Shown: positions 60,109 to 64,000 of the stretch, one piece after another
Numbering within the stretch: position 1 is the stretch's first letter
Layout: each line of letters opens with the position of its first letter
From: Bradyrhizobium sp. LTSP849
GTDB lineage: Bacteria > Pseudomonadota > Alphaproteobacteria > Rhizobiales > Xanthobacteraceae
Reading direction: 5' to 3'
Length of the DNA: 64,000 bases
Assembly (NCBI RefSeq): GCF_000938255.1
Contig: NZ_JYMR01000011.1
Location: forward strand, 1 to 64,000
Position numbers and translations under genes: made by a program
Notes under the pieces: model-generated
The model's input: only the letters and a program-made list of their open reading frames with translations
Database searches by the model: none
What the model was told of the DNA's origin: nothing

Positions 60109-62172
60109 ATGAATTACGGCATCGCTTTCACGCCGCTGGTTCCCGCGATCGTCCTGTGGATCGCGCTCGCCGCGATCGTGGTCATCGCCGGCGTGCTGCT
60201 GCTTGCACGGGCGCGCGGCACGGCCGTGCGCGTGGCAGCGCTGGCGCTGTTCCTGCTGGCGCTCGCCAATCCCTCGTTCACGCGCGAAGACCGCGATCCC
60301 CTCACCTCGATCGCCGCCGTCGTCGTCGACAAGAGCCCGAGCCAGAACTTTGGCAACCGCAATCGTGAAGCCGCGCAGGCGCAGGAGGCGCTGGTCGACA
60401 GCCTGAAGAAGATCAAGGGCCTCGAGGTTCGCGTCGTCGAGGCCGGACAGGCCGATGGCGAGACCGACGGCACAAGATTGTTTGGCGCTCTCGCCTCCGC
60501 GCTGGCGGATGTGCCGGTCGATCGCGTCGCCGGCGCGTTCCTGATCACCGACGGCCGCGTCCACGACATCCCGCCCAACGCCGCCGCGCTCGGCTTCCAG
60601 GCGCCGGTGCATGCGCTGATCACCGGGCAGAAGGACGAGCGCGATCGCCGCATCGCGGTCACGGCGGCGCCGCGCTTCGGCATCGTCGGCCAGAACCAGA
60701 CCATCACCTACCGGCTCGACGACCAGGGCGTCAGCAACGAGCGCGCCAAGGTCACGGTCCGCCGCGACGGCGAGGTCATCAACGAGCGCACGCTCTCAAG
60801 CGGCCAGACCGCCAGCGTCGACGTCGAGATCAAGCATGCCGGGCCCAACATCGTCGAGATCGAGGCCTCGCCGCTCGAGCGCGAGCTGACGCCGGTGAAC
60901 AACCGCGCCGTCGTCGCCATCGACGGCGTGCGTGACAAGCTGCGGGTGCTGCTGGTCTCCGGCGAGCCGCATTCCGGCGAACGCACCTGGCGCAATTTGT
61001 TGAAGTCCGACGCCAGCGTCGACCTCGTGCACTTCACCATTCTGCGTCCGCCGGAGAAGCAGGACGGCACGCCGATCAACGAATTGTCGCTGATCGCGTT
61101 TCCGACCCGCGAGCTGTTCCAGCAGAAGATCAACGAATTCCAGCTGATCATCTTCGATCGCTATGCCCGCCAAGGCGTGCTGCCGATCGCCTATTTCGAC
61201 AACATCGCGCGCTATGTGCGCTCGGGCGGCGCCGTGCTGGTCTCGGCCGGACCCGACTATGCCTCCAACACCAGCATCTGGCGCACGCCGCTGGATTCAG
61301 TGCTGCCGGCTGAACCCGTCGGCGTGACCGAGAAGCCGTTCTATGCGCATCTGTCGGATGTCGGCAAACGCCATCCGGTCACGCGCGGGCTGGAAGGCTC
61401 GGCATCCGAGCCGCCGCACTGGAGCCGCTTCTTCCGCACCGTCGACACCCGCAATTCCGTCAACCCGCCGGTGATGACGGGCGCTGACGGCAAGCCGCTG
61501 TTGTTCCTGACGCGCTTCGGTGAGGGCCGCGTCGCGCTCTTGCTCTCCGACCACATCTGGCTGTGGGCGCGCGGCTATGAGGGCGGCGGCCCGCATCTCG
61601 ATCTGCTGCGGCGGATGTCGCACTGGCTGATGAAGCAGCCGGACCTTGATGAAGAGGCGCTGCGCCTCCAGGTGCAGGGCAAGGACCTCGTGGTGGTGCG
61701 CCAGACCATGTCGGACAGCGTCCAGCCGGTGAGCGTGACCTCGCCCTCCGGCGTGTCGCGCGACCTGACGCTCAGCCCCGGCGACCCCGGCGAATGGCGC
61801 GCCAGCCTGCCGGCGAGCGAGCTCGGCCTGTGGCAGGCGACCGACGGCACGCTGAAGGCGCTGATCAATGTCGGCCCGACCAATCCGAAGGAATTTTCGG
61901 AAGTCACCTCCACGACCGATACCTTGAAGCCGCTGACACAGGCGACCGGCGGCGACGCGGTGCGCGTGGTCGACGGCTCCAGCGTCGAGCTGCCGCGCAT
62001 CGCGCCGGTACGCTCCGCCAGCATCTTCCATGGCGACGGCTGGATGGGCGTGCGGATGCGCGACGCCAGCGTGGTGAAAGGCGTCGGCGTGCTGCCGATC
62101 TTCGCCGGCCTGATCGGCCTATTGCTGCTGCTCGGCGCATTCGCCGCGACCTGGGTCCGCGAGGGACGCTAG
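60109..62172 (+). CDS. Large membrane protein with glutamine-amidotransferase-like fold
   Basis: The 687-residue protein has two N-terminal helices (VPAIVLWIALAAIVVIAGVL and VAALALFLLALANP), a vWA-like segment (AAVVVDKSPSQNFGNRNREA), an Ig-like middle (TVRRDGEVINERTLSSGQTA), a region like class I glutamine amidotransferases (residues about 280-480; VRSGGAVLVSAGPDY) without the catalytic Cys, and a C-terminal helix (VGVLPIFAGLIGLLLLLGAF). It is commonly the last gene of MoxR-DUF58-DUF4159 sets. ATG 60109 lies 20 bases after repeat C2. Confidence 0.8.
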   Translation: MNYGIAFTPLVPAIVLWIALAAIVVIAGVLLLARARGTAVRVAALALFLLALANPSFTREDRDPLTSIAAVVVDKSPSQNFGNRNREAAQAQEALVDSLKKIKGLEVRVVEAGQADGETDGTRLFGALASALADVPVDRVAGAFLITDGRVHDIPPNAAALGFQAPVHALITGQKDERDRRIAVTAAPRFGIVGQNQTITYRLDDQGVSNERAKVTVRRDGEVINERTLSSGQTASVDVEIKHAGPNIVEIEASPLERELTPVNNRAVVAIDGVRDKLRVLLVSGEPHSGERTWRNLLKSDASVDLVHFTILRPPEKQDGTPINELSLIAFPTRELFQQKINEFQLIIFDRYARQGVLPIAYFDNIARYVRSGGAVLVSAGPDYASNTSIWRTPLDSVLPAEPVGVTEKPFYAHLSDVGKRHPVTRGLEGSASEPPHWSRFFRTVDTRNSVNPPVMTGADGKPLLFLTRFGEGRVALLLSDHIWLWARGYEGGGPHLDLLRRMSHWLMKQPDLDEEALRLQVQGKDLVVVRQTMSDSVQPVSVTSPSGVSRDLTLSPGDPGEWRASLPASELGLWQATDGTLKALINVGPTNPKEFSEVTSTTDTLKPLTQATGGDAVRVVDGSSVELPRIAPVRSASIFHGDGWMGVRMRDASVVKGVGVLPIFAGLIGLLLLLGAFAATWVREGR

Positions 62173-62246
62173 TTGCCGGAACGACACATCGCGCGGCCAC
62201 TCGCGCGAGATCGCCTGACCGCCGTTGACATCCGCTGACTGATCGG

Positions 62247-62269
62247 GCGATGTTATAATATAACATCGC
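62247..62269 (+). promoter_or_regulatory. Zur box (23-bp palindrome)
   Basis: GCGATGTTATA, a central A, and the exact reverse complement TATAACATCGC make a perfect 23-bp palindrome. The core ATGTTATA-A-TATAACAT is that of the alphaproteobacterial Zur (zinc uptake regulator) site. It lies 45 bases upstream of a small exported-protein gene and the TonB-dependent receptor. Confidence 0.8.
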
Positions 62270-62314
62270 GACGCCAGGGGTTTGGCGCCTCGCGATGCGG
62301 GGTGGCGTTTCCAG

Positions 62315-62713
62315 ATGAAGTGGTTCCGGTCGAATATCAGGCACGGCGCCCGGCTCGCGATGTTCGCGATGCTGGTGCAATTCGCGCTGACGTTCGGCCA
62401 CAGCCACTGGTTCGCCCAGGCCGCGCCGCTAGCGCAGTCTCATCTGACCGACAGCGCCAAGACGACCGCCTCGATCGACCGCGCCGTCGTCCAGAAGCAA
62501 TCACCCGCCGGCCCCGATCGCGAGCAGCCGGGCGACGACAATTGCGCGATCTGCGCCGTCATCGCGTTGGCGGGCAGCGTCATGTCCGCGACGCCGCCTT
62601 TGCTGCTGCTGCCGCAGGCGGTCGAACTGCTCTACCGCACCACCGATGCCGAATTCGTCCATCTGAACTCGGCCCGCACGGCGTTCCAGCCGCGCGCCCC
62701 TCCCGTCTCCTGA
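62315..62713 (+). CDS. DUF2946-like small exported/membrane protein with CxxC
   Basis: The 132-residue product starts with a signal or anchor (ARLAMFAMLVQFALTFGHSH, ending WFAQAAP). A hydrophilic stretch follows, then DDNCAICAVIALAGSVMSAT, in which a CxxC lies at the start of a second hydrophobic segment. This is the layout of DUF2946 and related proteins often found beside metal receptors. With the Zur box upstream, a role in zinc handling is plausible. ATG 62315. Confidence 0.7.
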   Translation: MKWFRSNIRHGARLAMFAMLVQFALTFGHSHWFAQAAPLAQSHLTDSAKTTASIDRAVVQKQSPAGPDREQPGDDNCAICAVIALAGSVMSATPPLLLLPQAVELLYRTTDAEFVHLNSARTAFQPRAPPVS

Positions 62714-62855
62714 TCCCCATCGATTGAGCTGCCATCGGCATCGGCTGTTGCGCCGATCTCGCAAGGCTATCGAAATTGACCCGTCGCGTAACGACGGTGC
62801 GTGACGCCCGCAAAGCCTCGGAATGAGCGCGGCGGTGCGCAATCGGAATCAGGAC

Positions 62856-64000
62856 AATGGTGTCTCCAAAACCAATATTGGCGGGCTCGAGCCTCGCCGC
62901 ACTCACGCTTTTCTATCTCGGCGGCAGCGCCATGGCACAGACCGCACCGACCGGCGGCGTCACGACACTGCCCGGCATCGAAGTCGACGCCCCCAAACAA
63001 ACAACACCACCGCGCAAGCCCAAGGTCCGCGTCGTCACCGACAAGCGACGCGAAACGCCGGTTGTGCAGCCGCAGACGGAGGCGCAGGTCACCGCCGGCC
63101 GGAGCGAGAAGTTCGACACCGCGCGTCAGGCGATCCTCGCGCCCGCGGGCGCCACGACGCACACGCTCAATCGCCAGGCCATCGAGGCGCTGCCTCAGGG
63201 CACCAATGCCTCGCTGGACAAGGTGCTGTTGCAGTTCCCCGGCGTCACCCAGGATTCGGCCGCGAGCGGCGACCTGCATGTCCGCAACGAGCACGCCAAT
63301 CTGCAATACCGCATCAACGGCGTCATGCTTCCTGACGGCGTCGGCGCGTTCGGGCAGATTCTCGACACCGGCATCGTCGGCAGCCTCAGCCTGCTCACCG
63401 GCGCGCTGCCCGCGCAATATGGCCAGCGAACCGCGGGCGTGCTGGACATCCAGACCAAGGCCGACGCCTTCAACAATACCGGCGTCGTCGGCGTCTACGG
63501 CGGCAGCAACGGCACGATCTCGACGAATGTGGAATATGGCGGAACGGTCGGGCAGACCCAGTATTTCCTGTCGGGACGCTTTCTCCAGAACAATCTCGGC
63601 ATCGAGAACCCAACCCCGTCGGTCAATGCGATTCACGACCGCACCAACCAGGAGAAGGGATTTCTCTATCTCTCGACGATGATCGATCCGACCAGCCGCC
63701 TCACCTTCATGAGCGGCGTCTCGAACTCGACGTTCCAGATTCCCAACAATCCCGGCCAGACGCCGAATTTCACGGCCTTCGGTGTCTCGAACTTCGACTC
63801 GTCGCAGCTCAACGAGCACCAGAACGAGTTCAACCAATTCAACGTCGTCGCCTATCAGACATCGAACGGCGAGTTCGATACCCAGACGTCCTACTTCAAC
63901 CGCTATAGCCAGCTGCACTTCTATCCCGACACGGTCGGCGATCTCGTGTTCAACGGCGTGTCCTCGGACGTCTATCGCCAGAGCGTGGTCAACGGCATCC
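62856..64000 (+). CDS. TonB-dependent receptor, N-terminal 381 residues (runs off window)
   Basis: ATG 62856 with AGGA upstream opens a frame that stays open to the window end. It has a signal peptide (SLAALTLFYLGGSAMAQ), an N-terminal linker (TLPGIEVDAPKQTTPPRKPK), and the plug domain (IEALPQGTNASLDKVLLQFP, then YRINGVMLPDGVGAFGQILD and ALPAQYGQRTAGVLDIQTK). The start of the barrel follows. The Zur box upstream suggests zinc import, possibly with a zincophore; a ZnuD type is possible, but no His-rich loop is visible so far. Confidence 0.9.

Follow-up and report, generated by a model that had tools for sequence, protein, structure and literature searches.

Zinc uptake in Bradyrhizobium and its relatives is probably controlled twice, at the promoter and again by translation of a leader

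What controls a TonB-dependent receptor that has both a Zur-type palindrome and a DUF2946 gene before it? The question is raised by the last 2 kb of the window, the 64,000-nucleotide stretch of Bradyrhizobium sp. LTSP849 analyzed here (contig NZ_JYMR01000011.1), for which a preliminary description had predicted a zinc-repressed outer-membrane uptake locus. On balance we favor a zinc-uptake operon with two stacked controls, with Zur acting at initiation and a nascent leader attenuating the receptor after the start of transcription. This reading builds on what can be seen in the sequence, namely the box, the Zur gene, the architecture of the leader, its conservation, and the exchange of receptors behind it.

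The box is a perfect 23-bp palindrome (positions 62,247 to 62,269, without strand; 11+1+11, GCGATGTTATA-A-TATAACATCGC) with a core, GATGTTATANTATAACATC (62,249 to 62,267), that is kept across the loci of the genus. Allowing up to three mismatches, it is the single such place in the 64-kb window and appeared in none of 100 shuffles; the palindrome with a Zur core that had been described was thus confirmed and goes beyond chance. Across the whole genome (8.57 Mb in 57 contigs), the 17-bp core ATGTTATANTATAACAT occurs with at most three mismatches at two places, the window site and C10:174502-174518, and TGTTATNNNATAACA, with at most one mismatch, was also counted at two places. Since a control with the pattern reversed was equally frequent (one or two matches depending on the pattern), the number of sites alone proves nothing, and it is their places and conservation that count. 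The second site lies about 225 nt 5′ of the first listed start of an AztA-like gene, which is followed by AztB-like, AztC-like, and ZigA/CobW-like genes (all four scoring below the model cut-offs). The genome contains three Fur-family matches, and one of these proteins is Zur by similarity (E. coli Zur 4mtd, E 1e-27; 7dh7, E 9.5e-31; NCBIfam Zur, E 1e-34, below the cut-off of that model).

Upstream of the box, a TTGACA hexamer (62,225 to 62,230, + strand; 20 nt before the Zur 15-mer) is a possible -35 element; a strict sigma-70 scan of 62,100 to 63,000 found no promoter. TTGACA, TTGACC, or CTGACA is present within 60 nt 5′ of the box in 109 of 116 Zur-linked loci, 17 to 20 nt away in 108 of them, and it is on this hexamer, kept in relatives, that the presumed overlap of palindrome and promoter rests. 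The box, searched as a 15-mer with at most three mismatches, stands 15 to 80 nt 5′ of the leader in 116 of 139 Bradyrhizobium loci; elsewhere in the same loci, 530,816 positions contain 37 such sites, a background rate of 0.02 per 300 nt. Zur control, as claimed at the outset, is therefore supported by the motif, the placing of the sole other site before zinc-uptake genes, the Zur gene, and the recurrence of the box at homologous loci; on this evidence the locus is very likely under Zur control.

The gene that follows the palindrome (62,315 to 62,713, + strand) encodes 132 amino acids beginning with a hydrophobic helix, presumed to be a signal peptide. Its assignment as DUF2946-like was borne out by PF11162, the family of CruR-type leaders (residues 12 to 130, E 1.5e-10, 42.3 bits against a curated cut-off of 23.7). 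A separate small protein with the motif DNCAICAV had been placed between this gene and the receptor; however, DNCAICAV forms residues 75 to 82 of the DUF2946 protein, and the two are therefore one gene. Three motifs are encoded on the + strand: GHSH (GHxH, residues 28–31, codons at 62,396 to 62,407), CAIC (CxxC, residues 77–80, 62,543 to 62,554), a presumed metal site, and RAPP (CGC GCC CCT CCC, residues 127–130, 62,693 to 62,704), a presumed ribosome-arrest motif. CxxC and RAPP are 46 residues apart, and two residues separate RAPP from the stop. At a mean pLDDT of 62, the AlphaFold model of the leader is too poor to judge the metal site either way.

This architecture recalls CruR, an upstream ORF of the DUF2946 family in Bordetella, which is reported to sense copper via its CxxC and to stall the ribosome on a C-terminal RAPP, with release of the stall allowing Rho to end transcription before the receptor gene (PMC9426467); arrest at RAPP has been demonstrated in vitro (PMC12992588). 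In the CruR (bp2923)-bfrG/crtA operon of Bordetella pertussis, as here, the DUF2946 member comes first and precedes a TonB receptor, RAPP is C-terminal (at a spacing of 45 residues from CxxC there and 46 here), the intergenic region is long (162 nt there and 143 nt here), and a C>G bubble lies at the end of the leader; CruR has also been described as poorly structured, like the AlphaFold model of the present leader. The window differs in having a Zur box overlapping the presumed promoter and a GHxH motif, and no PepSY_TM-like gene was recognized by eye among the ORFs listed over the 9 kb past its receptor.

Three other systems share part of this arrangement. The CutF-CutO/CutG system of Rhodobacter capsulatus needs a DUF2946-type leader directly upstream of the controlled gene, but its proline motif is another one and copper is said to enhance, not relieve, stalling of CutF (PMC9973294). 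In Caulobacter, the DUF2946 gene CC2720 is the first of an operon with a predicted Zur site, but that operon, CC2720-czrCBA, is reported as an efflux operon that Zur activates from a site upstream of the -35 element (PMC4176598). The Zur-ZnuD uptake systems (ZnuD of Neisseria, ZnuK/ZnuL of Caulobacter) also have a Zur box before a TonB receptor, and most of the sister genomes searched have a ZnuD-like receptor; the window differs from them in the DUF2946 leader between box and receptor and in a receptor of another TonB type. The two motifs and their spacing, the position of RAPP, the length of the gap, and the C>G bubble are all as expected of an arrest-type attenuator, and we conclude from the sequence that the leader is quite likely one.

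The leader is widespread in the genus, with a match at E ≤ 1e-6 in 114 of 117 Bradyrhizobium genomes searched. The listed matches (split ones joined), together with a second DUF2946 gene of the LTSP849 genome, gave 141 loci, of which 139 were analyzed by script and two (L182 and L183), which gave no tblastn match, were read by eye. At least one Zur-linked leader is present in 109 of the 117 genomes. Among the 116 Zur-linked leaders, G28, H29, H31, C77, and C80 are identical in all, M1 is kept in 115, and in 114 the protein ends two residues after RxPP. The distance from CxxC to R(A/G)PP is 45 to 47 residues in 115 of the 116, and exactly 46 in 112; the lone exception, L145, reads as frameshifted before the motif. 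The codons vary synonymously, as at the Ala of RAPP (GCC 49, GCG 30, GCA 19, GCT 12) and at the first His of GHxH (CAC 58, CAT 58), and the median dN/dS is 0.24 (300 pairs among 25 close leaders), which together indicate selection at the level of the peptide. The first proline codon of RAPP (62,699 to 62,701 in the window) is CCT in 88 of 115 leaders; CCT makes up 8% of the proline codons of the receptor ORFs. GHxH is also present in 23 leaders of the genus without a Zur box and so cannot by itself serve as a signature of zinc.

A C>G bubble at the end of the leader (approximately 62,590 to 62,750, + strand; C 0.33–0.45 against G 0.22–0.32 in 78-nt windows) is a candidate rut site for Rho. The mean C-G profile of the homologs peaks around the leader stop, and the largest C-G averages 0.242 at the leader end but 0.178 within the receptor gene (n = 113 each), a composition that would suit a putative Rho-dependent termination. 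The intergenic region that follows (62,714 to 62,856, + strand; 143 nt) is without a terminator-like site, and a search of 62,100 to 63,000 found no intrinsic terminator; median gaps in the homologs are 149 nt (21 loci with a receptor of the window's type) and 141.5 nt (88 loci with a ZnuD-type receptor). A riboswitch in 62,150 to 64,000 was considered and rejected, the Rfam search giving only matches far below the gathering scores. The intergenic region contains a small hairpin, CCGTCG-CGTAA-CGACGG (62,781 to 62,797, + strand), a possible pause or structure element that recurs, itself or as a close variant, about 70 nt past the leader stop in 109 Zur loci of the ZnuD and window types. Its stem pairs are kept in 632 of 654 cases in these 109 loci, a count biased toward pairing because the stem was picked by similarity to the reference, and with one mismatch the pattern is near chance in the window (3 found against a shuffle mean of 1.07). 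As the stem is mostly conserved in sequence, with a few G-T pairs, we take the hairpin as weak evidence.

The gene behind the leader starts at 62,857 (+ strand), runs past the end of the window to contig position 65,127, and encodes 756 amino acids. The full protein matches TonB_dep_Rec_b-barrel (E 7.2e-32), which upholds its description as a TonB receptor; the plug match is weak and below the cut-off. The comparison with ZnuD that the preliminary description had proposed, made on the receptor extended beyond 64,000, did not identify it as ZnuD-like by sequence: ZnuD was absent from its matches in NCBIfam (at 1e-3), in the PDB sequence search (E up to 1), and in the PDB profile search (E up to 1e-5), and BLASTP against the ZnuD-like receptor of the genus gave no significant similarity (E 0.84). 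Membership of ZnuD was rejected on these results. In the PDB, its only matches are to the colicin I receptor, the nearest though a weak one (E 4e-9 in the profile search), and to a siderophore receptor (4.2e-6); these two kinds were also all that the PDB returned for the comparison with CrtA/BfrG, the structure of CrtA being possibly absent from the PDB copy used. The AlphaFold model of the receptor is poor (mean pLDDT 51).

The company kept by the leader in other genomes bears on the cargo. Behind the 116 Zur-linked leaders, the next gene is a ZnuD-like receptor in 88, a window-type receptor in 21, and ExbB in six, with one contig end too short to tell; on rechecking, these genes lie on the same strand and less than 1 kb from the leader, except at L145, where the receptor is split. 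Counted by genome, a Zur-linked leader precedes a ZnuD-like receptor in 87 of 117. The ZnuD-like receptor of the genus matches NCBIfam ZnuD at E 7.7e-61 (below the cut-off) and PDB ZnuD at E 6.2e-32, and such receptors (E ≤ 1e-100, with eight candidates scored per genome) are present in 92 of 117 genomes. They occur in 0 of the 21 genomes with a Zur-linked window-type receptor and in 92 of the 96 others, four genomes (G009, G055, G075, and G083) having neither arrangement; this mutual exclusion gives a Fisher p of 1.6e-19, ignoring shared ancestry. Mapped onto a tree of the 139 leaders, the window-type label has to change 11 times, and well-supported branches force at least eight of these changes; the tree rests on few columns, which makes these counts rough, and neither they nor the exclusion are free of shared ancestry. 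The upstream neighbor gene of the window accompanies all 21 window-type Zur loci and 66 of the 88 with a ZnuD-type receptor. Among leaders without a box, 17 precede window-type and three ZnuD-type receptors. Receptor genes have thus been swapped repeatedly at one and the same position while box and leader stayed as they were, an indication that the receptors have a role in common, and from this context we infer that the TonB receptor of the window is a receptor for zinc, or for a zinc chelate, that takes the place of ZnuD in its lineage. The predicted zinc-repressed uptake at the outer membrane accordingly stands in an indirect form, through the box and leader before ZnuD-like receptors and the presence of the window type behind the box only where ZnuD is absent, whereas a resemblance of the receptor itself to ZnuD does not. 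In six genomes, a second Zur-linked leader (L151, L152, L154, L161, L176, and L184) heads exbB, and all six also have a Zur-linked window-type receptor.

The arrangement extends beyond Bradyrhizobium. In a sample of the family, own genus included, a profile of the leader matched 88 of 198 genomes and 20 of 47 genera. Examination of 59 loci from other genera, part of these matches, placed the box 15 to 120 nt 5′ of the leader in 54 (14 of 15 genera), R(A/G)PP within the last nine residues in all 59, and GHxH in 56; a ZnuD-like gene follows 44 of these leaders and a window-type gene 12. At the level of the class, at least four of 385 genomes match the profile (up to 10 candidates scored per genome), two of them from the window's genus. 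One of the outside matches, L362, combines GHxH, CxxC, and RAPP with a box-like site (one mismatch), and by eye the ORF behind it resembles an outer-membrane protein; in the other, L363, all sites have four or more mismatches.

A phylum-wide search with PF11162 matched 48 of 299 genomes, and its best-scoring 30 loci were used as a contrast set; lower-scoring matches, among them members of the window's own clade (G000:C3, G021:C1:7020672, G063:C94, and G092:C20:42194), fall outside these 30. GHxH is present in none of the 30, and none has a box-like site with at most two mismatches within 250 nt upstream, the best having three mismatches at -40 (L262) and -199 (L264). One branch separates these phylum-wide leaders (25 of the 30 used) from the clade of the window with an SH-aLRT of 93. 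The 30 include the second DUF2946 gene of the LTSP849 genome itself (L183, G000:C49:245739-250068), which is followed by genes for a TonB receptor and PCuAC and has neither GHxH nor a near Zur box. The same genome therefore holds a copper-type leader in a pcu-like operon, separate from the Zur-linked one; a copper-starvation operon headed by a cruR homolog has been reported in B. japonicum (PMC9426467). Where GHxH leaders have no clear box, the genes behind them encode window-type receptors, HflK/HflC-like proteins, RND-type efflux, or NicO.

We propose the following course of events, in which Zur binding, ribosome arrest, the part played by Rho, the zinc ligand, and the zinc cargo of the receptor are all deduced from the features above. 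When zinc is sufficient, Zn-Zur on the palindrome over the promoter would block initiation. When zinc is low, the mRNA would start with the DUF2946/CruR-type leader, whose nascent chain would halt the ribosome at RAPP, with two codons left before the stop. The stalled ribosome would cover the C-rich region, Rho could not then stop RNA polymerase in the 143-nt gap, and the receptor would be made. Metal at CxxC, perhaps together with the GHxH of the clade, would release the stall, give Rho access, and cut off the receptor at once. That the ligand of the leader is zinc we rate as an even chance, a reading suggested by its company (Zur, ZnuD, and ExbB) and by the GHxH motif. The broader proposal, that the DUF2946 clade with GHxH and CxxC consists of zinc-sensing arrest peptides and forms with Zur a two-tier switch persisting in Bradyrhizobium and 14 further sampled genera while the receptor is exchanged, falls a little short of even and is put forward tentatively; the same caution applies to the suggestion that one tier might be slow, at initiation, and the other fast, within mRNA already started.

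Several other readings of the locus were weighed. Zur may sense zinc while the leader keeps a sense for copper, such that low zinc would lead to synthesis of the receptor only if copper is not high, which could guard against import of copper chelates through a zinc receptor. CxxC is called a recognized copper site, the leader belongs to the Pfam family of CruR, and CruR, with the same CxxC as the leader here, is described as copper specific, responding to copper and little to zinc (PMC9426467). However, no PCuAC, PepSY_TM, or plainly copper-linked next gene occurs in the clade loci examined, where the next genes seen are ZnuD-like or window-type receptors, ExbB, HflK/HflC-like, RND-type efflux, DUF1007, and NicO (the RND genes could still be copper pumps of the CusA/CzcA family), and the phylum-wide DUF2946 leaders form a separate branch, one of them with its own operon in the genome of the window; we therefore regard a copper veto as rather unlikely, though the most serious of the alternatives. 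We think it very improbable that the palindrome serves another Fur-family protein, with the locus answering iron or manganese. The genome does have three Fur-family matches, the two besides Zur being named Fur/Mur and Irr on a reading of their sequences, but the GTTA...TAAC core of the palindrome is shared by the Caulobacter Zur sites in Table 1 of PMC4176598, and at its other place in the genome the palindrome lies before zinc ABC-like genes.

The remaining alternatives concern the leader peptide. The preliminary description had suggested that the small protein is a zinc-handling partner; as an exported, zinc-binding partner of the receptor, the DUF2946 product would act in the periplasm, and purifying selection (the median dN/dS given above), the signal-peptide-like N terminus, and the conserved Cys and His residues would suit such a role. 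The strict C-terminal RxPP two residues before the stop, the fixed distance of 46 residues, the long gap, and the C>G bubble instead characterize a leader that acts in cis, neither of the relatives CruR and CutF is reported to have been detected as a protein (PMC9426467, PMC9973294), and the same type of leader precedes dissimilar receptors and ExbB; an arrest leader of the CruR type reads better, and we consider the exported partner improbable. We hold equally little expectation of a SecM-like monitor of export, in which the pull of secretion releases the arrest and metal plays no part. Arrest peptides of the RAPP type are known in Sec/YidC monitoring (PMC10987492) and the leader has a hydrophobic N-terminal helix, but the CxxC and GHxH invariant in 116 of 116 leaders would be left unexplained, and release of the CruR stall is reported to be independent of its signal peptide (PMC9426467).

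Leaders of the CruR type have so far been read as copper devices, and the arrest-type leader favored here is wired to Zur and to zinc-type receptors, across many genera of a single bacterial family, to which soybean symbionts belong. Relatives within DUF2946 are, according to Ozturk et al., not all necessarily copper specific, nickel and cobalt being suggested (PMC9973294). Our literature search, which covered few subscription papers, found none tying DUF2946 or an arrest-peptide leader to Zur-repressed uptake. The Pseudomonas pair PA0433-PA0434 rises with chelator and is not marked as part of the Zur regulon (PMC9431628), Hachmi et al. place BfrG/CrtA in a receptor family of its own without using the word Zur (PMC12914433), and the word TonB is absent from a paper on Sinorhizobium Zur (PMC7029138). 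Should the ligand be zinc, a nascent protein would here serve as a post-transcriptional sensor of zinc, a metal remarked to have no described riboswitch (PMC9426467). The analysis also points to the likely zinc receptor of Bradyrhizobium without ZnuD, and to a regulatory leader that outlives the gene under its control.

Some further loci are recorded here as single observations. In one genome, both the end of the leader (L145) and the ZnuD-like receptor (G077:C9:153878-155787) are frameshifted, by decay or sequencing error. In another Bradyrhizobium genome, four Zur-like places lie within 18 kb (G060:C1:85384-103596), which suggests an accessory zinc-uptake island. A record titled Frankia sp. 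RB7 (L297, JAUEPE010000005.1) has a leader 80% identical to that of the window and is probably a mislabeled Bradyrhizobium record. L169 and L172 are leaders of the GHxH clade with RAPP that head a gene pair, which in L169 is of the Band 7 type (HflK/HflC-like), one protein having a His-rich start; genes of the HflC/HflK type are listed in the Pseudomonas Zur regulon (PMC9431628). GHxH leaders with CPIC and RAPP precede DUF1007 (L182, G015) and NicO (L230, G210), the former with a box-like site of three mismatches at -77. In another genus, the leader L239 (G190), with a box-like site of two mismatches, precedes a gene of the RND-adaptor type (HlyD_D23), an arrangement reminiscent of CC2720-czrCBA of Caulobacter.
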